54,150 nt of DNA from a virus: positions 1 through 54,150 of the IMG/VR virus record IMGVR_UViG_3300027752_000024, one strand, 5' to 3'. Numbering within the stretch: the stretch's first letter is position 1; each line of letters starts with the position of its first letter. The position numbers and the translations under genes were made by a program. Shown piece after piece: positions 23,474 to 51,052 of this stretch. Under the pieces are notes generated by a model that made no database searches, had not been told where the DNA came from, and saw nothing but the letters and a program-made list of their open reading frames with translations.

Positions 23474-24811
23474 CTAGAAGTAGTCTTTGATCCACGGTAT
23501 ATAATCGTGAATATCAATCTTTCTAAACTTGTCACTGGCATTAGTATTGTCTATAAAGTGTTGCCAGTGTGTTTCGTTTTGTGGTTGATTGAGAACATTT
23601 TTTAAGTTAATAATATTATCAACTGCCCATTGTTCCCAGTCTCGTAAATCTGCATTTTTAAACTTCAAGTGTTGTTCTTCAAGCATTGTATTCATTAATG
23701 CTTTACGGTCGTCTGGTAGATTACATATGTGCAAGTGTTGTGGATGATCTACAATATTAAAATGTGGCAAACAATTCTGATATCCGTGTACACCCCAATC
23801 CCATTCGTAGTTCCAACTAGTATACTGGTCTTGACACCATTGTAAAATATTAGGTAAATCGTGTAGATTCATCAAACTAAGTGTAACATGCGTGTGTACT
23901 TTAACACCAGTACGAGTTTTACTAAACTCAGCGAGCTTAAACATATTTTTTTCAATAACACGCCATTTGGTAGGAAATCTAACATAATGTGCAAGGTCGC
24001 CAATTGCGTCAATACTTAAACTAAGTACAACACCTTTAAACTTATCCCAAATCTTTAACAGCCTGTCTGGTATAGTAGTAGCATTTGTGTTGTAGTGCAG
24101 TTCTATATGTTTGCTCCAACCCTGATCAATGATGTGTTCTAACCAAGCGTAGTGTTCTTCAACAACCAGCGGCTCTCCACCAATAAAGTTAATAACTCTT
24201 ACATTTGGCAATACTTCATCAAAGAACCCTTCTTCAAATGCTTTAATAAACCAAGGCTTATCACTGCTCATTTTAGCAATCATATATGCTGTTTCGTCCC
24301 AATCAGTATGAGGTACTGTTGGGCCTTCTTCAATCCATCTATGACTTGCCCATGGGTTACAACTGCGGCATTTTAAGTTACAAATATTTCCTAAGCTGAT
24401 ATCTAAATATGTAACAGCTTGTGGATCTAAGCGTCCGTCATCATCAACATGCTTTAAAGTTGTATCAGTGTGATCTTCGTATATCTCATTCCATGTTTGT
24501 CTGAAACTACGGATGCCTTGATCCTCTAATTCAAAACAACCTTTACAACCTTTGGGTATTTCATTGTTGAGTAGTTTTTTACGTATTTCCATAGCTGTTG
24601 GATCATTTATAAAATCACCAATGTCAGGACTATTCCAGTTGTTGTGTTCTTTCCAATAAGGAACAGAATCTACATCAACTCCTGGCATGTAACTGTTAGT
24701 TTCAATACGACTAAAACAACAAGGACGAGTGCGTCCATGTGAATGTGTGCTGTAACCTTGCATACTAAGGTAACAAAAGTTTTTTGGCAGGTTATCTGAT
24801 TTTGTTTGCAT
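23474..24811 (-). CDS. Radical SAM protein, twitch/SPASM-type
   Basis: 445 residues from the ATG at 24811; the frame extends upstream into the neighbouring gene. The 4Fe-4S motif is C144-x3-C148-x2-C151 (NICNLKCRSC), followed by a VINFIGGEPLV segment for SAM binding. Ahead of it an N-terminal domain has CYLSMQGYS, RPCCFSR and GCKGC, likely ligands of an auxiliary cluster, as in the neighbouring paralogues. Such enzymes modify peptides (epimerisation, thioether or C-C bonds) or act as maturases; substrate unknown. Last gene of the long radical SAM transcript. Confidence 0.85.
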   Translation of the reverse strand: MQTKSDNLPKNFCYLSMQGYSTHSHGRTRPCCFSRIETNSYMPGVDVDSVPYWKEHNNWNSPDIGDFINDPTAMEIRKKLLNNEIPKGCKGCFELEDQGIRSFRQTWNEIYEDHTDTTLKHVDDDGRLDPQAVTYLDISLGNICNLKCRSCNPWASHRWIEEGPTVPHTDWDETAYMIAKMSSDKPWFIKAFEEGFFDEVLPNVRVINFIGGEPLVVEEHYAWLEHIIDQGWSKHIELHYNTNATTIPDRLLKIWDKFKGVVLSLSIDAIGDLAHYVRFPTKWRVIEKNMFKLAEFSKTRTGVKVHTHVTLSLMNLHDLPNILQWCQDQYTSWNYEWDWGVHGYQNCLPHFNIVDHPQHLHICNLPDDRKALMNTMLEEQHLKFKNADLRDWEQWAVDNIINLKNVLNQPQNETHWQHFIDNTNASDKFRKIDIHDYIPWIKDYF

Positions 24812-25784
24812 ATTCTGGCCTTGCTTTGCTGATATTAAAGTCTGCTGCACAATGACAATGTGTCTTAGGACACCAAACACCTTCGCTCATTGTAGTATTA
24901 AACTCGCCTTGTACAATATTGCCCAACAGTGGGCCAACGCCACAACTGGCTTGTTGAATACGTCCATTAGGATGAATGTGTAAACTTTCGTGTATATTGC
25001 ACAACCAGCCCTTAAAGAAGTTCTTACCGTTTGTAATGATACCGTTTGTATCAATAGCTTCTATGGTGTCATCTTCATACTGTACTTTTGCCCAAGCATA
25101 ACTTGGATCTTTTTTAATAGGAATACTCTGTTGCTGCACTGTACTATTTGTTTTAAAGAAATCCATTTTCCATTGTTCTTCATAATGATACGGATCTGTG
25201 CTAGGACGTAGCTCGTCATAAACCGGTGCATACTCAATCATATAGTTGTCGCACTCATTTTTTATTCTGTCGCCAAATGCCATGCACTGTTCAAAATGAT
25301 CGTGATGCATCATAATACGACTACACAAATAGTTTTTCTTATCTTGCAAGAACTTGTAAACATCCATGTACTTGTCGTCTTTGCTCCATTCTGCGTGATA
25401 GCTGGCAACAACATCTTCAAACAAGTGATGATGATCCTTCCACCAGCTTAGTGGCTTACTAAAGTTGGTGTTGATACCTACACAACTGCCAGGCCATTCT
25501 GCATGTTCTCTAAACTTTTCTACAACAGGAATAAGTCCTTTCCAAAATGTAGGTTCGCCGCCGCTGAGGTACAGTTTAAAATATTTGTAGCCTTTGGCCT
25601 TGTAATGAAGCATGATACGTTCTAATGTGTTAACAATAGTATCTATGTCAGTGTCGTTTTTGTTACGGCCTGCCCAGTTCCATTCACTACAATATGTACA
25701 GCGAAAGTTACACCAATCATTTACTTGCCACACAATACTGACCCATTTGTCCTTTGCTGGCAGGATTGCTTTTATATCTTGCAT
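24792..25784 (-). CDS. Radical SAM protein with short N-terminus
   Basis: 330 residues. The cluster motif C25-x3-C29-x2-C32 (WCNFRCTYCSEW) and the LSGGEPTF motif (73-80) mark a radical SAM core starting at the N-terminus, unlike its neighbours which have an extra N-terminal cysteine domain. The C-terminal part has CNIHESLHIHPNGRIQQASC and CPKTHCHCAADF, a SPASM/twitch-like arrangement for an auxiliary Fe-S cluster. Overlaps both flanking radical SAM genes. Substrate unknown; the layout suggests a distinct subfamily within the cluster. Confidence 0.85.
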   Translation of the reverse strand: MQDIKAILPAKDKWVSIVWQVNDWCNFRCTYCSEWNWAGRNKNDTDIDTIVNTLERIMLHYKAKGYKYFKLYLSGGEPTFWKGLIPVVEKFREHAEWPGSCVGINTNFSKPLSWWKDHHHLFEDVVASYHAEWSKDDKYMDVYKFLQDKKNYLCSRIMMHHDHFEQCMAFGDRIKNECDNYMIEYAPVYDELRPSTDPYHYEEQWKMDFFKTNSTVQQQSIPIKKDPSYAWAKVQYEDDTIEAIDTNGIITNGKNFFKGWLCNIHESLHIHPNGRIQQASCGVGPLLGNIVQGEFNTTMSEGVWCPKTHCHCAADFNISKARPEYANKIR

Positions 25785-26980
25785 TCGTTTTCCAATATGT
25801 AATCTAATGTTGGGAATATATCACCAAACTTGTATTTGCGATATCTATCGTTAATACTAATAAACTGCTTCATCCGTGTTATGTTCTCTTCAGAATATTT
25901 ATTAGTATTCTGTGTGTAGTTAATGATTCGCGAAACTGCATCGTTGTGTAGTTTGCTGTTTATTATTTTTAAGTTGTCTATTACTTTGTGTCGTATTTCT
26001 TTGGGCCATACACAACTATGAATTTGGTCAGGGTGTTCTAAGAATATAGGTACAAAGTCTATACGCCGTGTTTGTGTGTCTTCTAGCCAACGTATCAGTG
26101 GAGCAACATCAAATACATTCCATGCCTGGTATACAAAGTAAATCTTTAGTTGTACTTTTTCAGGTAGACGCTGTGCTTTTGCAAAGTTTTCTTCTACTTT
26201 TTTCCAATCAGTTGGATAACGTATGTATTGGTTGTGTTCGCCAAATCCGTCAATGCTCATCTGTATTTCACTTGCATCAAAGAAGTCTAGTTTATCGTAA
26301 AACCCTTCTGGCCATGTTGTCATATTAGTGGTCCATGCAACATAGCATTTGTTGTTGCCAGCGGAAACAAGGGCGTCAAGCACGTACTGATTGGCTTGTA
26401 TTAAGGTTGGTTCACCCCCAGTTAGGTAAAGACGCTCTAACGTAGGTGCTACGCAGTCTACGAAGTCTTTAAACTCTTGAGTCTCGTACCATGCCCAATC
26501 GTGTTCCTCTACACTTTTAATCTCGTGTTGCCACTGATCATTTAGCCATTTAGGAACAGTTTCATTTGCAAGGATTTTCTTACGTTCTTTGTAGATATTA
26601 TCACTGCTCACACTCCAGCAACTATTGCATTTTAAGTTACAATGATTGCCCAATCGTAGTTCTAAGTGTGTAGGGTTGCCGTGAGTTACAGATGCATGAT
26701 AGGTTTTGTTGGCCCACTGCCTGCTGCTTTCTAAACCTTTTTCTTCGTGTTCGTAGCAGCGATTACATTCTTTAACTTTGCCACCACCCAGCATCTTTGC
26801 ACGAACATCCAGCATGTATTGCCCGTTCCAAATGTTCCACCAGTCAGTTTTACCTAGTACAGCATCTTTGCCATCTACTTGAATATAGTCTTCACTGTAT
26901 ACATGACAGCATAGTTTACATCTACCATCGGTGTTGGTGTGTACGTTTATAAACGGGTATACGCAATACGAATCACTCAT
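25772..26980 (-). CDS. Radical SAM protein, twitch/SPASM-type
   Basis: 402 residues from the ATG at 26980, chosen because GGAG lies 6 nt upstream and the ATG overlaps the preceding stop as ATGAGTGA. Core motif C114-x3-C118-x2-C121 (NHCNLKCNSCWS) and YLTGGEPTL. The N-terminus carries CVYPFINVHTNTDGRCKLCC and ECNRCYEHEEKGLESSR, matching the auxiliary-cluster domain of the genes at 23474, 29132 and 30333. Function unknown; tandem paralogy suggests successive modifications of one target or specialised paralogues. Confidence 0.85.
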   Translation of the reverse strand: MSDSYCVYPFINVHTNTDGRCKLCCHVYSEDYIQVDGKDAVLGKTDWWNIWNGQYMLDVRAKMLGGGKVKECNRCYEHEEKGLESSRQWANKTYHASVTHGNPTHLELRLGNHCNLKCNSCWSVSSDNIYKERKKILANETVPKWLNDQWQHEIKSVEEHDWAWYETQEFKDFVDCVAPTLERLYLTGGEPTLIQANQYVLDALVSAGNNKCYVAWTTNMTTWPEGFYDKLDFFDASEIQMSIDGFGEHNQYIRYPTDWKKVEENFAKAQRLPEKVQLKIYFVYQAWNVFDVAPLIRWLEDTQTRRIDFVPIFLEHPDQIHSCVWPKEIRHKVIDNLKIINSKLHNDAVSRIINYTQNTNKYSEENITRMKQFISINDRYRKYKFGDIFPTLDYILENECKI

Positions 26981-29132
26981 TCCATTCTCCATTTCCTTGC
27001 CATGCATATTTAAAGCTAAAGTCTGTATTACGTGTATACAAAAACTCTTGTTCGTGTTCGCGGAACACATCTGGATCGTGAGCATTTGTAGGATCTCTAG
27101 ATGCTTTTTCAGTGCCTTTCCACGCTAACTTACGAGCTCTAATAGCTGCATTACTGTTGTCTCTTGTAAAGTCCATGATACTCCAAACTGGGCTATTACC
27201 GTCTGGACTTACATGTGTAACTCCGTTGTGTTCCCAGTATGTATCATTCCAATCGTTGTATGGATCTTGTTGATAATCCCATTTAAAATCCGCAGTCCAC
27301 ACACCATCATCTGTTATTTCAAATATATAGTCTGCATCCAACGGTGCAGCATTGCGGCCACCCCATTCTTGATATTCCCATTCTTTACGGAACTTTAAAT
27401 GCAACTTATACCCGCCTTTGGTGCGCCATAAAATACGCAAGAATGGCCAAATCTCATTTACTAAACTGTCAGCAAAGTTACTAATGTACGGCTTGATAAT
27501 ATTATAGTTAAAATCATCATAGTCGTACTCAATGTCTAGTTCTTTGTCTGGATTATCAAATGTAACCTCGTAATGAAACTTTGCTAAGTTTGGTCTAGTA
27601 GGTTTAGAACATGCTTTTTCTGTATTCAGCAAATCTGTAAAAATACTAAAGGACTTCATACGAATAAGTTTGTGTACAATACTCATTTTAAAGTCTTTTG
27701 TAATCCAGTGATCGTAATAGTAAAATGGACTTAGGTTAAATTTGTCTAAGTTTTGTCCTACAATAGTATCAACACCAACACTAAATCCTGTACCCTGACT
27801 AATAGCAATAAGTCCTTGATTGCGCACACGATACATAAATGTAAGAGTGTCTTCTAGTTCTTTAGGACCTTCATTGGGATAGCCAACAATCCAGTTGGTC
27901 ATTGCATCAATACCAGCAGCATAGCCATCACGGAAGTTTGCTTCCATTTCTGCCACAGTAACTTTTTTGTCCATTGCATCTAATACAACTTGACTTCCGC
28001 TTTCAATACCGTAGTTGAGTACTTCACAGCCTCCTGCTTTTAAATCCTTGTAATACTCTGCATCCATTCTGCCATCACAACGGCAGTAGCCAGTCCAATG
28101 TATATCCAGTTCTTTTTCTGCAACACCTTTTACAAACCCACGTAGCTCGTTGAGATTGCCATTGACTAAACTGTCAATAAACCAAAACACATTAGTACCA
28201 TGTTCGTAATACATGTGTTCAATCTCATCAAGTGTACTAAGTGCATTACGTTGTCTGTATTTCCAAAAGTGTGTTTCTTCGCAGAACGTACACTTTGCAA
28301 TACAGCCTCTTGATATCTCACACAATGCACCGTTTGGAAACTTGTACTTACTAAAGTCAAAATCACTGTAATCAGGCAACGGTAGTGTACTCAAGTTATA
28401 ACGCTGATTTTCAGGTTGTCTAATAATCTTACTTACAGCATTTTCTGTGTACTCGATGGATTTGTTATTTTCAATGTTTTCTAGTGCAAGCAACAACGGC
28501 TGTTCGCCTTCGCCGTTTACTACATAATCAAATAGGTCGCAGCCTTTGTAAAAACTAGCATGAGTACTCGGTCCTCCAACAATAATAGTCACAGTTGGCA
28601 AACGTTTTTTTAACTCTGCTGCCATATACTTTGTTGGTACTTCGTTGCAGTAGTACAATGTAAATCCAATCACATCAGGATTAAATGCAACAATCTCATC
28701 TAGCTTTTCATCCAGTAATGGTCTTAGATGAGGATGGATATCATCATAGTAGTTGTCTTCTAACCAATGCCAGTCACGTAGACTATCCCATGGATTAAAC
28801 TCTATAGGCCACTGCTCATCGTTGAATCGGCTGTATGCATCCACATTAATGTCAAAACTCTTACATGCATATCCTGCACGTTTTACAGCACTAGCAAGTT
28901 TTGCTGTGTTGTAAGGTGGAAAGTTAGGATCCCACTCTGGTAGTAATCCTAAACATACACGAGTCTTACGATTAACACTGTATTCAATCTCAAGATTGTC
29001 TAGTCCTTTTTGTACTGGTTTGCTATACTTTGCAATAACAGCTAATGTAGCTGTGTGCTTGTCTTCAGCAAGTGTGCCTGTAGGACGTTCCGGTGCTTGT
29101 CTATCTGGATCTGTATTTTCATAAAATCCCAT
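26973..29132 (-). CDS. B12-binding-domain radical SAM protein
   Basis: 719 residues. Residues about 55-225 form a Rossmann-like cobalamin-binding-type domain (PPYNTAKLASAVKRAGY, VIGFTLYYCNEVPT, IIVGGPSTHASF, VVNGEGE). The radical SAM cluster motif is C277-x3-C281-x2-C284 (RGCIAKCTFCEE), followed by VFWFIDSLVNGN and YGIESGSQVVLDAM, typical of this class. The C-terminal 200 residues are unusual, aromatic and acidic, with no recognised fold. Known relatives methylate unactivated carbons or catalyse ring rearrangements. It ends in an overlap with the next radical SAM gene and starts directly on another's stop. Confidence 0.88.
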   Translation of the reverse strand: MGFYENTDPDRQAPERPTGTLAEDKHTATLAVIAKYSKPVQKGLDNLEIEYSVNRKTRVCLGLLPEWDPNFPPYNTAKLASAVKRAGYACKSFDINVDAYSRFNDEQWPIEFNPWDSLRDWHWLEDNYYDDIHPHLRPLLDEKLDEIVAFNPDVIGFTLYYCNEVPTKYMAAELKKRLPTVTIIVGGPSTHASFYKGCDLFDYVVNGEGEQPLLLALENIENNKSIEYTENAVSKIIRQPENQRYNLSTLPLPDYSDFDFSKYKFPNGALCEISRGCIAKCTFCEETHFWKYRQRNALSTLDEIEHMYYEHGTNVFWFIDSLVNGNLNELRGFVKGVAEKELDIHWTGYCRCDGRMDAEYYKDLKAGGCEVLNYGIESGSQVVLDAMDKKVTVAEMEANFRDGYAAGIDAMTNWIVGYPNEGPKELEDTLTFMYRVRNQGLIAISQGTGFSVGVDTIVGQNLDKFNLSPFYYYDHWITKDFKMSIVHKLIRMKSFSIFTDLLNTEKACSKPTRPNLAKFHYEVTFDNPDKELDIEYDYDDFNYNIIKPYISNFADSLVNEIWPFLRILWRTKGGYKLHLKFRKEWEYQEWGGRNAAPLDADYIFEITDDGVWTADFKWDYQQDPYNDWNDTYWEHNGVTHVSPDGNSPVWSIMDFTRDNSNAAIRARKLAWKGTEKASRDPTNAHDPDVFREHEQEFLYTRNTDFSFKYAWQGNGEWNE

Positions 29133-30340
29133 TACCAGATTCCGTCTAGTTCAGGAAACACATCCAGTAAACTTTCTTGCCGCAATCTATCGATACGCTG
29201 TGTTTTAAACTTAAACATTTTTATTTCATCTGTGCGATCTTTTTCCATAAAGTTTAAAATACTCTCGTAATCGCTAATAACTGATTTAATATTGTCAAAC
29301 TGTTTTAAGTAAGAAATGTGTTCTGCATATCTTTTTGCTACTTGAGATTTAATCCACGGCGGCAATATACTCAATCTCATGTAAGAAGGATCCAATAAAA
29401 TGTTGATGCGAATGTTCTGCGGTTCTAGTAATCCTTCTTCTATCCATTCTTTGTGGAAATCAGGTAGGTTAAGCACGTTGTACACGCTTACAGTAGGCGT
29501 TAGCTCAAAATATACGTGTGGACACTGCTCAATCATATCTCTACGGTTTTGCACCACCTGTGACCATACCATGTTCTTACGCAAGTATTCACCGCGAGCA
29601 TGATTTGCATCCAAGCTACCGGCCACTCTTACGTGTTCAAACTTGTTCCAGTATTCAAATGCTGTTTTGTTTTTGTAATACATTTGTGTAAAGTTAGTGG
29701 TGTAATCCATTTTAACATCGTGCTTGCCCATGGCAATCCACTTGTCAAGTATACGATAGTGCTCTTGTGTAATCAACGGTTCGCCACCTGCCCAGTATAC
29801 TCTTTCAACACTGTCCAGCAATGGCTCAAGTTCGTCCATAAAGTTTAACATATCGTCACGCACTTTTAGTATCTTGCCATGCGGCAGTTCACCGTATATT
29901 GCTTTATGATCTTCAAACCAGCTACTACTAAACTGTGGCCCGCAACTACGACACTTTAAGTTACAAAGGTTACTAAAGCGTATGTCCATGTATGCCATGT
30001 TTACATCACCAGCACTGCCGTCGTCGCTTGTGCTTTCAACTTTGTCCCAATGATGCATATAGTTTTCTATACTGCTGTTACGCAGTGTACTCATACCGTT
30101 GTCTTCTAGTTCATAGCAACGTCTACATTCTTTGCTGGGCGTGTCTTCCAACATGTTAAGACGCAACTGCCGCATTTCTGGGCCGTTCCAAATGTCTTGC
30201 AATGTTTGATCTTGTGTATTTCCTACAGGATGATCTGGATCACTCATGCAGCAAGGATATGTAGTTCCAGCAGGCCACAAATGCATGTGCGTCCACGGCA
30301 TCATGCAAAAATGCTTGCTTTGTTTTAAATCGTTAGACAT
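29132..30340 (-). CDS. Radical SAM protein, twitch/SPASM-type
   Basis: 402 residues. N-terminal domain FCMMPWTHMHLWPAG, then YPCCMSD and ECRRCYELEDNG; radical SAM motif C126-x3-C130-x2-C133 (NLCNLKCRSCGP) and VYWAGGEPLI. Closely similar to the next gene upstream, including the DDGS linker before the core and a C-terminal VFPELDGIW ending that recalls VFPELKDLYV in the paralogue, so the pair arose by duplication. Substrate unknown. Confidence 0.87.
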   Translation of the reverse strand: MSNDLKQSKHFCMMPWTHMHLWPAGTTYPCCMSDPDHPVGNTQDQTLQDIWNGPEMRQLRLNMLEDTPSKECRRCYELEDNGMSTLRNSSIENYMHHWDKVESTSDDGSAGDVNMAYMDIRFSNLCNLKCRSCGPQFSSSWFEDHKAIYGELPHGKILKVRDDMLNFMDELEPLLDSVERVYWAGGEPLITQEHYRILDKWIAMGKHDVKMDYTTNFTQMYYKNKTAFEYWNKFEHVRVAGSLDANHARGEYLRKNMVWSQVVQNRRDMIEQCPHVYFELTPTVSVYNVLNLPDFHKEWIEEGLLEPQNIRINILLDPSYMRLSILPPWIKSQVAKRYAEHISYLKQFDNIKSVISDYESILNFMEKDRTDEIKMFKFKTQRIDRLRQESLLDVFPELDGIW

Positions 30341-31544
30341 ATAAATCCTTTAGCTCTGGAAACACGTTGAGAAAGTTTTCTCCACGTTTCAGATCCATTT
30401 TCTGCATCTCCATCCTAAAAGCTGGAATCAAGTTGCTGTCATCACTATTGTACATGAAGTTTATAATATTGTCAATACCTTCATGTAGAAACTGTTTGCG
30501 CTGTGGATACATGTCTATTGCATCAATGTCCTGTTTTAACAACACCAAATTTTCTTTTGCAATGTCTTTTAAGTGTGCAGGTAATATTGTTATACTCAGC
30601 CAGTCTGGCCCGACTAATAGGTTGCTGAGATTGATATCGTAGTCGGTGGGTATGTTGTGTTCAAACAAGAAGTTAATAATCTTACGCAAGTCTAATATGT
30701 TTAATACACTGATAGTAGGATTAGGTTGTATGATTACACCTTTGTCATAACTGTGTTCAAAGTTATCACGTATCCAGCACAAGTTATCAAATACTGTACT
30801 CCACTTTTGTCCATTGCGTGTGTACTCGGCTTTGGCACCAATTTGGTCACAGCTTACACAGAAGAATATCTTATCAAAATGCTGCCAATACTTTTGTATG
30901 TGCTTGCCTTTTAAACTTAATCTACTGGCGTTACTGTTGTATGTTAATCTCGGTTTGAGTCCACGCTCTATAAGCATATCTAGCAGTCTGTAATGCTGCT
31001 CCATAAACAGGCTTTCGCCGCCAGTAAAATAAACTTCTTCAATAGTGGGCAACATTTCTTCAATCTCAGCCCACATTGCTGGATGATTGATTTCAACAAC
31101 TTCAGGCTTGCCAACAGTGTCTTCTGCCCACTTGCTGCTGAAATGAGGCCCACAACTACGACACTTCATGTTGCATAGATTACTAAACCTTACATCAAAG
31201 TATGCAAGATTCATTTGTTCTACACTACCATCATCGGCTGTTGTTTCTACTATGTCGTAATGATGGTCGTATTCGGTGTTGAACTTGTGTCTGTAACTGA
31301 TAATACCCTGGTCGTCATAGTTGGTACACTTTTTACATCCTTCGCTTGGTTCGTTGTTTAACATACGCATACGCAAGTCACGCATCTTTTCACTGTTCCA
31401 AGCACCTTTGAACCCAGCTTCGTTGATGTTACCAGTGGGCATATCCCAGTGATATATACAACAAGGATACGCATCGCCGTTTTGCCATACGCTCATGTGT
31501 GTCCATGGAGCCATACAAAAATGTTTTTTAAATTCTCTACTCAA
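30333..31544 (-). CDS. Radical SAM protein, twitch/SPASM-type, variant GGES motif
   Basis: 403 residues. N-terminal FCMAPWTHMSVWQNG, YPCCIYH and GCKKCTNYDDQG; core C124-x3-C128-x2-C131 (NLCNMKCRSCGP). The SAM-contacting GGEP motif reads TGGES here, a departure from all other copies in the window, with unknown effect. It otherwise aligns end to end with the 29132-30340 protein. Its start overlaps the glycosyltransferase-like gene by 8 nt. Confidence 0.86.
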   Translation of the reverse strand: MSREFKKHFCMAPWTHMSVWQNGDAYPCCIYHWDMPTGNINEAGFKGAWNSEKMRDLRMRMLNNEPSEGCKKCTNYDDQGIISYRHKFNTEYDHHYDIVETTADDGSVEQMNLAYFDVRFSNLCNMKCRSCGPHFSSKWAEDTVGKPEVVEINHPAMWAEIEEMLPTIEEVYFTGGESLFMEQHYRLLDMLIERGLKPRLTYNSNASRLSLKGKHIQKYWQHFDKIFFCVSCDQIGAKAEYTRNGQKWSTVFDNLCWIRDNFEHSYDKGVIIQPNPTISVLNILDLRKIINFLFEHNIPTDYDINLSNLLVGPDWLSITILPAHLKDIAKENLVLLKQDIDAIDMYPQRKQFLHEGIDNIINFMYNSDDSNLIPAFRMEMQKMDLKRGENFLNVFPELKDLYV

Positions 31545-46248: not shown

Positions 46249-46663
46249 CTACAAACTCACCATCAACGATTTTCATAAACTTACAGGGAACACTCAAGTC
46301 TCCAACACGTTTGAAGTATGATCGACCACCATCTACTGCGCAATCACCAACTGTACGATAATCATGTCGATGCTGTGAATACTCCCAACCCGTTGATCCT
46401 TCAATCATACCAAACTCAAGTGTTTCAATCATATCAGCGTCTGTAATGTAAACATTGCCGTTAGCATGAGGATTGCGATACAGACCAAAGTAGCGATTGC
46501 CAAACTCAGGATGCGGTGTAGCACGATAATAGATATCAGCAGCATAATTGGCATGTTCGTTAGTAGCTGAGGTGCAAACATACTTTACTGGTACGCCGTC
46601 TTTTTCACTGTAGAGCTTTTCTACTTCTGCTGTGTCAAACAGTGGGCTGTGGCTGATGTTCAT
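46229..46663 (-). CDS. Hypothetical protein
   Basis: 144 residues, beginning MNISHSPLFDTAEVEKLYSE. Mixed alpha/beta with FGNRYFGLYRNPHANGNVYI and CAVDGGRSYFKRVG. No recognised family or catalytic signature. Overlaps the TilS-like gene by 29 nt and the 47-residue gene by 20 nt, so it is part of the TilS transcript. Confidence 0.7.
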   Translation of the reverse strand: MNISHSPLFDTAEVEKLYSEKDGVPVKYVCTSATNEHANYAADIYYRATPHPEFGNRYFGLYRNPHANGNVYITDADMIETLEFGMIEGSTGWEYSQHRHDYRTVGDCAVDGGRSYFKRVGDLSVPCKFMKIVDGEFVDEKQDF

Positions 46664-47252
46664 CTTCTTTAACCTTTTTTGCGATAGTTTTATGAATGCC
46701 TGGGTTAACTTTTAGTACGTGCGGCATCATTTCATGTCTAATATAGTTACGAGTATAGCATATATCTGCGTTGCTGTCATCCTCAATCCACGGCACGTTG
46801 TTAAGATTTGCCCAAAGTTCAAAGTCACGTTTGCGATTTAAACGGAACGGACGAACAACATTCTTACGGCGAAACGGGATCCATTTGCCTGTGCCGTTCA
46901 GGCTGCTCATTACCCATGTTTCTACACAATCGTCTAAATGGTGGCAAGTAACAATAGGCGCACAATCTACAAGGTCAAAATATTTATAACGCTGTTCACG
47001 CCACCAAGCTTCTCTGCTAAGACCCGGCGGCACAGTGCCTCTGCATTCTCCAAACTCGTACGGAATACGATTATCAGCACAGTAGCGTTCTACAAATGCT
47101 CTTGCTTGTTCACTGTGTGCAGTTTTATGATCAAAGTGTAGTACATTTACATCATGATTGCGGCGTAGAAAGTCTAATGCTGCCATACTGTCAACTCCAC
47201 CACTACATGCTAGATAAATTCTACGAGGTAGTTTGCCTTGTAGTTTAATCAT
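46635..47252 (-). CDS. tilS: TilS-like tRNA(Ile)-lysidine synthase (short form)
   Basis: 205 residues from the ATG at 47252 (ATGA overlap). TilS adds lysine to C34 of tRNA-Ile(CAU), switching it from Met/AUG to Ile/AUA. PP-loop SGGVDS at 17-22, then HFDHKTAHSEQARAFVERYC, SREAWWREQRYKYF, HHLDDCVET (104-112) with SSLNGTG, RPFRLNRKRDFE and DDSNADICYTRNYIRHEMM match TilS-specific motifs rather than QueC, TtcA or MnmA. Bacterial TilS usually has C-terminal domains; this is the catalytic domain only. Obvious partner: the CAT-anticodon tRNA at 39022-39098. Confidence 0.85.
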   Translation of the reverse strand: MIKLQGKLPRRIYLACSGGVDSMAALDFLRRNHDVNVLHFDHKTAHSEQARAFVERYCADNRIPYEFGECRGTVPPGLSREAWWREQRYKYFDLVDCAPIVTCHHLDDCVETWVMSSLNGTGKWIPFRRKNVVRPFRLNRKRDFELWANLNNVPWIEDDSNADICYTRNYIRHEMMPHVLKVNPGIHKTIAKKVKEDEHQPQPTV

Positions 47253-47461
47253 TGATTTGCACACCACTCGCGCCAAGTAAGGATTTCCATTGATGCTCCA
47301 TCCCCACGAGTCTTTAAATAGCCGTCTTCAATCAAACTATCAATAGCACTTGCTACAACTCCTTCAACATGGGCTCGTTTACCCATGTACCAACCTACTA
47401 GTGTAAATACCAATGCTACAACAAACACCATCAGTGTCTGCATATTTAAAAACATTTCCAT
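47249..47461 (-). CDS. Small membrane-anchored protein
   Basis: 70 residues. N-terminal membrane helix (LMVFVVALVFTLVGWYMG, about 10-27), then a soluble helix and DGYLKTRGDGASMEILTW. Coupled by ATGA to the TilS-like gene and abutting the two-helix membrane gene upstream. Function unknown; perhaps a membrane tether for a partner protein. Confidence 0.7.
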   Translation of the reverse strand: MEMFLNMQTLMVFVVALVFTLVGWYMGKRAHVEGVVASAIDSLIEDGYLKTRGDGASMEILTWREWCANQ

Positions 47462-49073: not shown

Positions 49074-49102
49074 AATATAACATACGGGCACACACTTGTC
49101 AA
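49074..49102 (-). promoter_or_regulatory. Sigma70-like early promoter with extended -10
   Basis: Minus strand TTGACA, 17-nt spacer ending GTATGT, TATATT. Drives the 131-residue gene and the SWIM/TilS transcript downstream. It sits between the MTase stop and that gene. Confidence 0.78.
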
Positions 49103-50061
49103 CCTATAACTTCACACAATCCATGAGCAAATACATCAACAGATTTTTGAATAGTTGTGTGCAGCAATATTTCTTTTGCTGCTTTTGCTGTACGTGTATT
49201 GTTACCATCTTCGTCTAGAATAGGATTGCCATCTTTATCTTTTTCAGTAGCTCTACGCCCAGCAGTATACTTAATATCAAAATAACTATCATTTAGATGT
49301 GCTTTGTGTGCATCAAAAAACCCATCCTGTGCATCATCTCTATTACAGTAAAATACAATATCACCTTGCAAATCTTTTTGTACACAATACTCTATTAGAG
49401 TTTGATGATCTGCATCTGTAAAGCCTTCGCCATAACTTGTAAAGCTATCTCTGTAAGGAGGGTCATAAAAGAAAAATGTACGCTCATTGTTTGCAGCATC
49501 ACTAGCTACTTGCCAATCGCCGCAGTAAACATCTGCCTTTTGTAAAAAAGTATGCCACTCTAACACATTGTCTTTCTCGTATACCGATGTCTTTTGATTA
49601 CCTAGTCCAAACGGTGTATCAAATCTACCATTTGCACGTTTAGTAGTTTGCCAAATGCCATTAAATGCTGTTTTCATTAAGAAGTAAAGTGTAGCACTTT
49701 CTTCTGTAGCAGTCCATGTGTGTATATTGGTTGCATATGGTGTGCGTAGATTGTAAAACCATTCTTTACGAGCTGCTTTGTCTAATGGCAAATACTGTGC
49801 TTCTAATGCATCCATACGTTTAATAAAGTTATCAAGATCGTTCTTGATAGCATTATAGATACCAACAAGTTCTTCTTTAACATCATTAATAATAAAACGT
49901 TTTACGTCTGGACAGTTTTTATACACCCAAATAGTCATTGCGCCGCCACCAAAAAATGGCTCGACAAATGTGTCGTAGCCACTAGTTGGGATACCCGGAC
50001 CTTCTAAGTACTTGGGTATCATTTTGTTTTTGCCACCTGCCCACATATATAACGGTTTCAT
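49099..50061 (-). CDS. Dam-like DNA N6-adenine methyltransferase (D12 class)
   Basis: 320 residues. SAM-binding MWAGGKNKMIPKYL (6-19), FVEPFFGGGA (32-41) and the catalytic DPPY motif (YDPPYRDSF, about 199-207) identify a D12-type adenine methyltransferase. AFNGIWQTTKRANGRFDTPF resembles the DNA-recognition part of Dam. It starts in a 4-nt ATGA overlap after an EcoRI-like nuclease gene, so the pair may be a restriction-modification system in which it protects phage DNA. Target sequence cannot be read from the sequence. Confidence 0.93.
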   Translation of the reverse strand: MKPLYMWAGGKNKMIPKYLEGPGIPTSGYDTFVEPFFGGGAMTIWVYKNCPDVKRFIINDVKEELVGIYNAIKNDLDNFIKRMDALEAQYLPLDKAARKEWFYNLRTPYATNIHTWTATEESATLYFLMKTAFNGIWQTTKRANGRFDTPFGLGNQKTSVYEKDNVLEWHTFLQKADVYCGDWQVASDAANNERTFFFYDPPYRDSFTSYGEGFTDADHQTLIEYCVQKDLQGDIVFYCNRDDAQDGFFDAHKAHLNDSYFDIKYTAGRRATEKDKDGNPILDEDGNNTRTAKAAKEILLHTTIQKSVDVFAHGLCEVIG

Positions 50062-50564
50062 AATGTTCCTTCCAATGTTTCTTGCATTATAGCACTAACT
50101 TGATCAAATGTAAAGCCTTCAGGTGACATATAGAACTTGAAGTTTTCGCCTAACATGATGTTTGCTTTGCGCCGAAGATTATCTAAACATTGCCCTTGTG
50201 CAGAACCTGGTCCGGAACAAAACGTTACATATATTACATCTGGATTAACATGTTTTGCTGTACAAGCATTATCCCACCAACGTTCGTATGCATTGCCGCC
50301 AAGCCCTTGTTTCTTAGCTTCAAATACTGCTACTAGTTTGTCGCCTTTAAACCATGCGCCGCCATCTGGGGCAAATCCAAAACAGTTGTCGCCAACATAT
50401 TTTATTTTATCTTCATATGAAAATTGTTTAATCATCTTAAGATCGGGTACACGTATGTTATCTCGAGATTCTTTGAGCTGTCTATCAAGTTTAGAACTGT
50501 CAACATCTAGTGCAGTTGTACCTGATTGAATGCCGCCCTTGAAGTTGTTTACACGCTGTGACAT
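50058..50564 (-). CDS. EcoRI-like PD-(D/E)xK restriction endonuclease candidate
   Basis: 168 residues. APDGGAWFKGDKLVAVFEAK followed by KQG gives D67 and E82-x-K84 of the PD-(D/E)xK fold. The PDGG...EAKxQG pattern is close to that of EcoRI, whose active site is D91, E111, K113. It is shorter than EcoRI and may lack arm segments. NAYERWWDNACTAKHV follows in the region where EcoRI has NAIERxHKNI. Coupled to a Dam-like methylase by an ATGA overlap. A DNA-degrading or restricting role is inferred; a T4-like context could also use it to destroy host DNA. Confidence 0.78.
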   Translation of the reverse strand: MSQRVNNFKGGIQSGTTALDVDSSKLDRQLKESRDNIRVPDLKMIKQFSYEDKIKYVGDNCFGFAPDGGAWFKGDKLVAVFEAKKQGLGGNAYERWWDNACTAKHVNPDVIYVTFCSGPGSAQGQCLDNLRRKANIMLGENFKFYMSPEGFTFDQVSAIMQETLEGTL

Positions 50565-50593: not shown

Positions 50594-50621
50594 AATATAG
50601 TGGGGTTTAAATAGATGTCAA
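50594..50621 (-). promoter_or_regulatory. Sigma70-like early promoter for the nuclease/methylase pair
   Basis: Minus strand TTGACA, 16-nt spacer, TATATT, overlapping the stop region of the SprT-like gene. Confidence 0.72.
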
Positions 50622-51052
50622 CTGGTTTGTGTCCATTTTAAGTGGGCAAGACGTTCTTTTTCTGCCCAGCGTACAAACAATCCTGTTTCGCGGCCGTGTG
50701 CTTCAATCTCCCAAGGAAGATCCCAGTAGCTGGTTTTTTTAGGATTGTATGTTTTGCCGCACCAAGTGTGCTTGGAAGGATGCAATTCACGTCTTGCATA
50801 CTGCTTAACGTGTACCATTTCGTGTGCTACAGTTTCCAGCATTTTGCGATAAGATAATGTGCGATCAACTTCGATCTCAAACTCTCTATTGGTGTCAAGT
50901 TCTAGACAATAACCCATGGCACCTTTTGGTGAGCATAGCTTCACTTCTATTTCAAGTGTACGCATACGTGGCATTAGAGTATTGATACAAAACTGTACCA
51001 TACTCTCTACATATCTACGTTGCTTGGGTTTGCCGCCTGTTACTGTTATCAT
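50618..51052 (-). CDS. SprT-like zinc metalloprotease
   Basis: 144 residues. VAHEMVHVKQYAR (about 74-86) has the HExxH zinc signature and WDLPWEIEAHGRE (about 113-125) supplies the third ligand region, as in SprT/WSS1-like proteases that cleave DNA-protein crosslinks or other substrates. The N-terminus is basic. Promoter TTGACA/TATATT is directly upstream. It may help remodel host or phage DNA-bound proteins during early infection, by analogy. Confidence 0.83.
   Translation of the reverse strand: MITVTGGKPKQRRYVESMVQFCINTLMPRMRTLEIEVKLCSPKGAMGYCLELDTNREFEIEVDRTLSYRKMLETVAHEMVHVKQYARRELHPSKHTWCGKTYNPKKTSYWDLPWEIEAHGRETGLFVRWAEKERLAHLKWTQTS

Follow-up and report, generated by a model that had tools for sequence, protein, structure and literature searches.

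The described systems closest to the gene pair analysed here are EcoRI and RsrI, both specific for G/AATTC. In EcoRI, A2 is read by E144 and R145 and A3 by R145; the T methyls are contacted by G140, A142 and Q115, and the outer G1 is read by R200 (PMC3806743). EcoRI star activity has been reported to cut plain AATT, and in EcoRI-like operons the nuclease gene precedes the methylase gene (PMC5896346). MunI (PF11407) recognises CAATTG. In E. coli Dam, the first G of GATC is read by K9 and the fourth base pair by R124 (PMC10073500). Restriction-modification (RM) systems made up of an endonuclease and a cognate N6-methyladenine methylase are also encoded by chloroviruses and marseilleviruses (CviAI type), and a part in virus-pathogen interactions during coinfection has been assigned to them (PMC7253447). 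The gene pair described in this work is located on the minus strand of a T4-like phage stretch of 54,150 nucleotides (positions 1 to 54,150 of the IMG/VR virus record IMGVR_UViG_3300027752_000024, hereafter the window). It features a putative nuclease gene followed by a D12 methylase gene, and is probably a phage-encoded type II RM system with predicted AATT specificity, which would spare the phage's own DNA and attack unmodified DNA.

The order of the two genes is that of EcoRI-like operons. The nuclease shares with EcoRI and RsrI the fold (VIA-align Z 11.7), the PD...ExK site, and the Q115 and GNAxER residues. It is shorter than EcoRI (168 versus 277 aa, 21% identity over 140 residues), and the phage system further differs because the arginine reading the outer G is not conserved, the partner is a D12/Dam-family enzyme, both genes are phage-encoded, and the predicted site is 4 bp long. 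The GNAxER motif is found in MunI as well, and MunI-family nucleases adjoin the same methylase subfamily in related phages; however, the window nuclease has no PF11407 match, and the AATT depletion of the window is not CAATTG-specific. The methylase resembles E. coli Dam and DpnM by Dam-family profile and Protein Data Bank (PDB) matches, but differs from both at the residues reading G/C in GATC. Chlorovirus and marseillevirus systems are similarly virus-encoded, but belong to viruses of eukaryotes and target GATC in the cited examples, whereas an EcoRI fold and a predicted AATT site are associated here in a T4-like phage.

The likeness to EcoRI is not wholly unnoticed, because the gp11 protein of Synechococcus phage S-CREM2 (OR473000) bears the GenBank note 'restriction endonuclease EcoRI' (annotation only). 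This protein is 68% identical to the S-RIM2 member of the family, and a D12 methylase is encoded two genes away. The S-CREM2 paper, when searched by terms, revealed no discussion of the endonuclease or its site, and no paper on the nuclease family was found in the open-access literature. Site, conserved pairing and genome signature appear to be undescribed in the open papers searched.

The nuclease family

The nuclease gene and its conserved motifs map as follows.

50058..50564, minus strand: coding sequence of the EcoRI-like endonuclease, ATG start, 168 aa, PHROG_2400 (family profile and predicted structure)
50358..50369, minus strand: PDGG, residues 66-69; P66 and D67 correspond to EcoRI P90 and D91 (catalytic Asp)
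50307..50321, minus strand: EAKKQ, residues 82-86; E82, K84 and Q86 correspond to EcoRI E111, K113 and Q115 (roles from PMC3806743)
50280..50297, minus strand: GNAYER, residues 90-95; corresponds to EcoRI G140-R145, the inner AATT recognition motif

The encoded protein contains APDGGAWFKGDKLVAVFEAKKQG and the internal stretch FAPDGGAWFKGDKLVAVFEAKKQG. It belongs to PHROG_2400, which is listed as 'unknown function'. Relatives have been identified in the Synechococcus phages S-RIM2, S-BM1 and S-CREM2, and in about 100 IMG/VR stretches. The family alignment and profile, as well as the linkage counts reported below, refer to 58 non-redundant relatives.

The original prediction had singled out a 168-aa protein in which PDGG is followed by FEAKKQG, close to the EcoRI active site. 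P66, D67, E82, K84 and Q86 are indeed invariant, and the catalytic triad D67, E82 and K84 (EcoRI D91, E111 and K113) is found in 58/58 relatives. The likeness extends beyond the active site, as the recognition residues G90, N91, A92, E94 and R95, aligned by HMMER to EcoRI GNAIER, are similarly conserved in 58/58. Altogether, the counterparts of EcoRI P90, D91, E111, K113 and Q115, and those of G140, N141, A142, E144, R145 and N149, do not vary in the family. In contrast, no conserved Arg was found in the 58 members after residue 105, where the R200 equivalent could lie. Because the inner-AATT residues are invariant and a conserved Arg at R200 is missing, the enzyme is predicted to read AATT only. 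It has not been filed as an EcoRI isoschizomer, because the R200 equivalent is not conserved and depletion in the genomes carrying the gene goes beyond GAATTC.

EcoRI entries were the sole PDB matches of the 58-sequence profile (E 0.001-0.01). The nuclease model obtained by AlphaFold (AF2) has a predicted local distance difference test score (pLDDT) of 87. EcoRI entries, and not the non-restriction PD-(D/E)xK family envisaged as the contrary outcome in the original prediction, occupied the top five positions when this model was compared by VIA-align (Z 11.5-11.7, 140 aligned residues, 2.8-2.9 A, 20-21% identity); Can2 (Z 9.9), BstEII (9.2), BsoBI (7.9) and MunI (7.3) ranked lower. All the sequence features that could be tested here place the nuclease in the EcoRI/MunI GNAxER superfamily. 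No cellular relative was detected by a contig scan of the genomes of about 85,000 species, in which confirmation used one sequence; for this reason a diverged bacterial ancestor may still exist.

Depletion of AATT in phages carrying the nuclease

Observed to expected ratios were calculated on second-order Markov expectations. AATT is the lowest of the tetranucleotide palindromes in the window, with 93 sites observed versus 318 expected (0.29). In the relatives closest to the window by DNA topoisomerase (topo II, 73-91% identity) AATT ranges from 0.85 to 1.02 at all 19 loci, and neither nuclease nor D12 matches were found in the 18 records of these relatives that were searched. The median AATT ratio is 0.38 in the 58 nuclease-bearing loci; it is higher both in 51 cyanophage controls (0.83, p 9e-14) and in the 19 relatives (0.92, p 9e-11). 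These p-values overstate independence, because the loci share ancestry. No other palindrome drops comparably between carriers and controls. The control with a low ratio, L156 (0.15), is a contig ending where its near-identical relative L155 has the nuclease.

When 51.6 kb were aligned to nuclease-less sister phages, AATT had the lowest window-to-sister ratio among tetramers (0.29) and was the least retained of them (10%, versus 27-47% for other AT-only words). Composition as the cause of the depletion is rejected by the Markov expectations and by this alignment. GATC has been similarly rejected as the shared site, since its ratio in the window is 0.95 and the Dam K9 and R124 residues are replaced. 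CCGG, GGCC and AGCT are also depleted in cyanophages, but to an equal extent in pair-less controls, and this signal was therefore disregarded. CATG is wholly absent from the sister-phage loci L239, L240, L241 and L247.

Sites may be lost because of the host. According to such an explanation, an AATT-cutting restriction system of the host drives the depletion, the phage methylase serves as anti-restriction and the nuclease is incidental. Phages do avoid host sites, and CCGG is zero in all the WH7803 phages examined. Yet among phages recorded on Synechococcus WH7803, the AATT ratio is 0.33 in S-RIM2 and 0.28 in S-BM1, which carry the pair, and 0.99 in S-PM2 and 0.85 in S-RIM8, which lack it. Avoidance is also not seen in the closest relatives of the window. 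A host origin of the depletion, largely refuted by the same-host phages, is very improbable. AATT depletion tracks the pair, not the host.

In most carriers the depletion is independent of flanking bases. All ten AATT flank classes are depleted in the window, S-RIM2, G002, L003, G003 and G005. Because of this independence the site is taken to be AATT rather than a hexamer. That the nuclease, like EcoRI and MunI, reads a longer AATT-centred site such as GAATTC or CAATTG is unlikely; a flank bias in some carriers (G008 and G001, see below) would fit such a site, but the depletion of all ten flank classes in the genomes just listed and the lack of a conserved counterpart of R200 argue against it.

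AATT is retained in carriers with the methylase, and is zero in two related records, both fragments, that host the nuclease and no detected D12 gene (111,864 and 73,883 bp, 0 sites versus 340 and 233 expected, respectively). In the records behind L074 and L081 (G003 and G005), CCGG is also absent, in 74 kb and 112 kb.

The associated methylase

The methylase gene overlaps the nuclease gene by 4 nt. Gene and motifs are located as follows.

49099..50061, minus strand: coding sequence of the D12-class (Dam-family) N6-adenine methyltransferase, ATG start, 320 aa (profile matches)
50029..50046, minus strand: MWAGGK, residues 6-11; Met in place of Dam K9, reading the first G of GATC (role from PMC10073500)
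49648..49665, minus strand: FNGIWQ, residues 133-138; Gln in place of Dam R124, reading the fourth base pair of GATC; Q138 is invariant in linked methylases
49453..49464, minus strand: DPPY catalytic motif, residues 200-203

The overlap with a D12 adenine methylase, as originally described, is borne out by these coordinates and by a match to Pfam MethyltransfD12 (PF02086, E 2.5e-33). The protein also scores 142.5 bits with TIGR00571 'dam' (cut-off 114.85), and its PDB matches include DpnM (1.1e-15) as well as E. coli Dam (7e-10); the DPPY motif is invariant. The label Dam-like thus holds for the family and fails for the residues reading G/C in GATC. At the K9 position nuclease-linked methylases carry M, I or V (M6 in the window) and in a few cases K, and at the R124 position they have Q (Q138 in the window). 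Unlinked Dam genes of the same phages differ from them in the hairpin. Because both residues are replaced, the enzyme has not been filed as a GATC Dam. The changes fit a GATC to AATT switch, in which base pairs 1 and 4 would have passed from G/C to A/T, and the residue arguments for nuclease and methylase both point to AATT as the predicted site. Two loci hosting the same methylase subfamily, L319 and L277, lack GATC (0.00) or are strongly depleted in it (0.16).

The association of the two genes is recurrent. In 36/58 relatives the D12 gene either overlaps the nuclease gene, by exactly 4 nt in 22 of them, or abuts it; in 10/58 it is found 0.9-1.4 kb downstream, behind an inserted gene. In several of these ten spaced loci the insert encodes a ParB/DGQH-like protein of PHROG_2558. 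In a cyanophage group this insert is about 340 aa long (L014:4635-5690, L035:6806-7825, L063:6800-7819). D12 genes are missing from the fetched locus in 10/58, and the contig ends too early in 2/58. Coupling is therefore observed in 46 of the 56 testable relatives. The 190-kb record G002 encodes a linked-type D12 methylase at another position. Judging from the invariant residues and the recurring gene order, the active-site motif of the nuclease is not a product of chance. The proposal of a compact type II RM pair is in turn supported by the conserved D12 coupling and the AATT depletion.

These data bear also on the hypothesis that the nuclease is a repair or recombination PD-(D/E)xK enzyme, adjacent by chance to a GATC Dam. 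PD-(D/E)xK folds are widespread, and the gene lacks a curated family name. The EcoRI-specific recognition motif is however invariant, EcoRI is the best structural match, coupling and AATT signature are both present, and the Dam G/C-reading residues are replaced, all of which makes this hypothesis extremely improbable.

The same methylase subfamily is found behind other nucleases. Some are MunI-family proteins (PF11407 above cut-off; 1d02 E 2.7e-8). They are about 160 aa long and precede the methylase in several loci of the set L301-L318 and L326, where AATT depletion is mild (median 0.68). Others, called type B, are candidate nucleases of about 290 aa featuring a conserved E-x-K-x-NGASLKP motif, and are located upstream of the methylase in L256, L258-L266, L270, L276, L280, L284, L287 and L296. 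The predicted structure of type B weakly matches PvuII (Z 3.2), and the family could not be placed.

Evidence weighing against the proposed interpretation

Several observations weigh against the interpretation of the genes as an EcoRI-like RM pair specific for AATT. As a single sequence the nuclease has no match in Pfam, NCBIfam and PADLOC, and nothing was found in PDB by phmmer; because these searches were empty, a family profile was needed. Foldseek alone gave nothing under 1e-3 against PDB and ranked BbvCI first, so that EcoRI surfaced solely at the second look by VIA-align. Type B loci are AATT-depleted too (median 0.27), and depletion therefore tracks the system, not the EcoRI-like nuclease alone. 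The ratio is uneven among carriers, ranging from 0.0 to 0.86. G008 has 1 CAATTG versus 45 expected and spares GAATTC (24/17), and G001 is mainly depleted in GAATTC (2/24; CAATTG 21/30); because of these flank effects, seen in a few genomes, longer or different sites are possible in some members. The ancestry shared by the loci, and the fragmentary state of the AATT-free records, have to be counted here as well.

Surroundings of the gene pair

Two promoter-like sequences of sigma-70 type, identified by consensus match only, are associated with the pair.

50594..50621, minus strand: TTGACA-16-TATATT, upstream of the nuclease start (11/12 consensus)
50086..50114, minus strand: TTTACA-17-TATAAT, inside the nuclease gene and upstream of the methylase start (11/12 consensus)

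The pair had been supposed to lie under an early promoter. A site of this kind is found upstream of the nuclease, but promoter-like matches in the region are 11, versus 7.4 +/- 2.7 in shuffled sequences; because this excess is mild, an early promoter is no more than plausible.

A small protein encoded just upstream of the pair (50618-51052, minus strand) has a HEMVH motif and weak metallopeptidase matches, and a similar gene is located upstream in L001, L256 and L257. Farther away, the window hosts a run of ORFs (open reading frames) at 23474-31544 (minus strand), four of which (23474, 25772, 29132, 30333) hit a single radical SAM phage family (phrog_14086). The phage also encodes, at 46635-47276 (minus strand), a TilS-like domain (tRNA lysidine synthetase) that scores above the NCBIfam cut-off.

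Proposed mechanism and significance

Cleavage, methylation specificity, timing and target can be envisaged as follows. The upstream protein would be a minimal endonuclease of the EcoRI/MunI superfamily, which kept the PD...ExK site and the inner-AATT residues and lost the arginine reading the outer G. Early in infection it would cut the 4-bp palindrome AATT in unmodified DNA, plausibly the host chromosome, as a source of nucleotides, and/or the DNA of competing phages. The downstream Dam-family enzyme would methylate an adenine of AATT. Phage DNA coming from the previous round would arrive methylated, and new copies would be methylated during replication. Methylation and the purge of most AATT sites would together spare phage DNA; the continued purge in carriers may reflect a remaining selective pressure against methylation that is slow or incomplete, and complete site loss may substitute for the methylase where this is missing.

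The pair may be real and serve mainly to attack co-infecting phages (superinfection exclusion), rather than to break down the host chromosome. Sister phages lacking the pair have a near-normal AATT density, which would make their DNA a target, and the marseillevirus GATC system has been reported as not degrading host DNA (PMC7253447). An unmethylated host chromosome would likewise bear AATT, however, and the present evidence does not separate host from competitor; a prevailing role in exclusion is a tentative option.

Since this methylase subfamily has at least two further types of nuclease as partners, the nuclease seems to have been swapped and the site conserved. On balance, and with modest confidence, it is suggested that lytic T4-like phages of a widespread family possess an EcoRI-derived weapon specific for AATT, and have two interchangeable means of self-protection, a Dam-family methylase switched from GATC to AATT or, in some of them, the total loss of AATT, which would make the methylase unnecessary.

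Virus-encoded RM is already known, and the phage pair of predicted AATT specificity appears to be a variant not described before. A specific function and a recognition sequence are proposed for PHROG_2400, the latter deduced from the genomes of the phages and not from an assay, and marine T4-like phages would join the viruses with a complete RM pair. The family also offers a natural experiment in self-protection, as methylase carriers tolerate AATT and two nuclease-only records have none. If the interpretation is true, a compact AATT-cutting relative of EcoRI would help in understanding how EcoRI acquired its outer base pair, and such phages would have a means to attack host or rival DNA.
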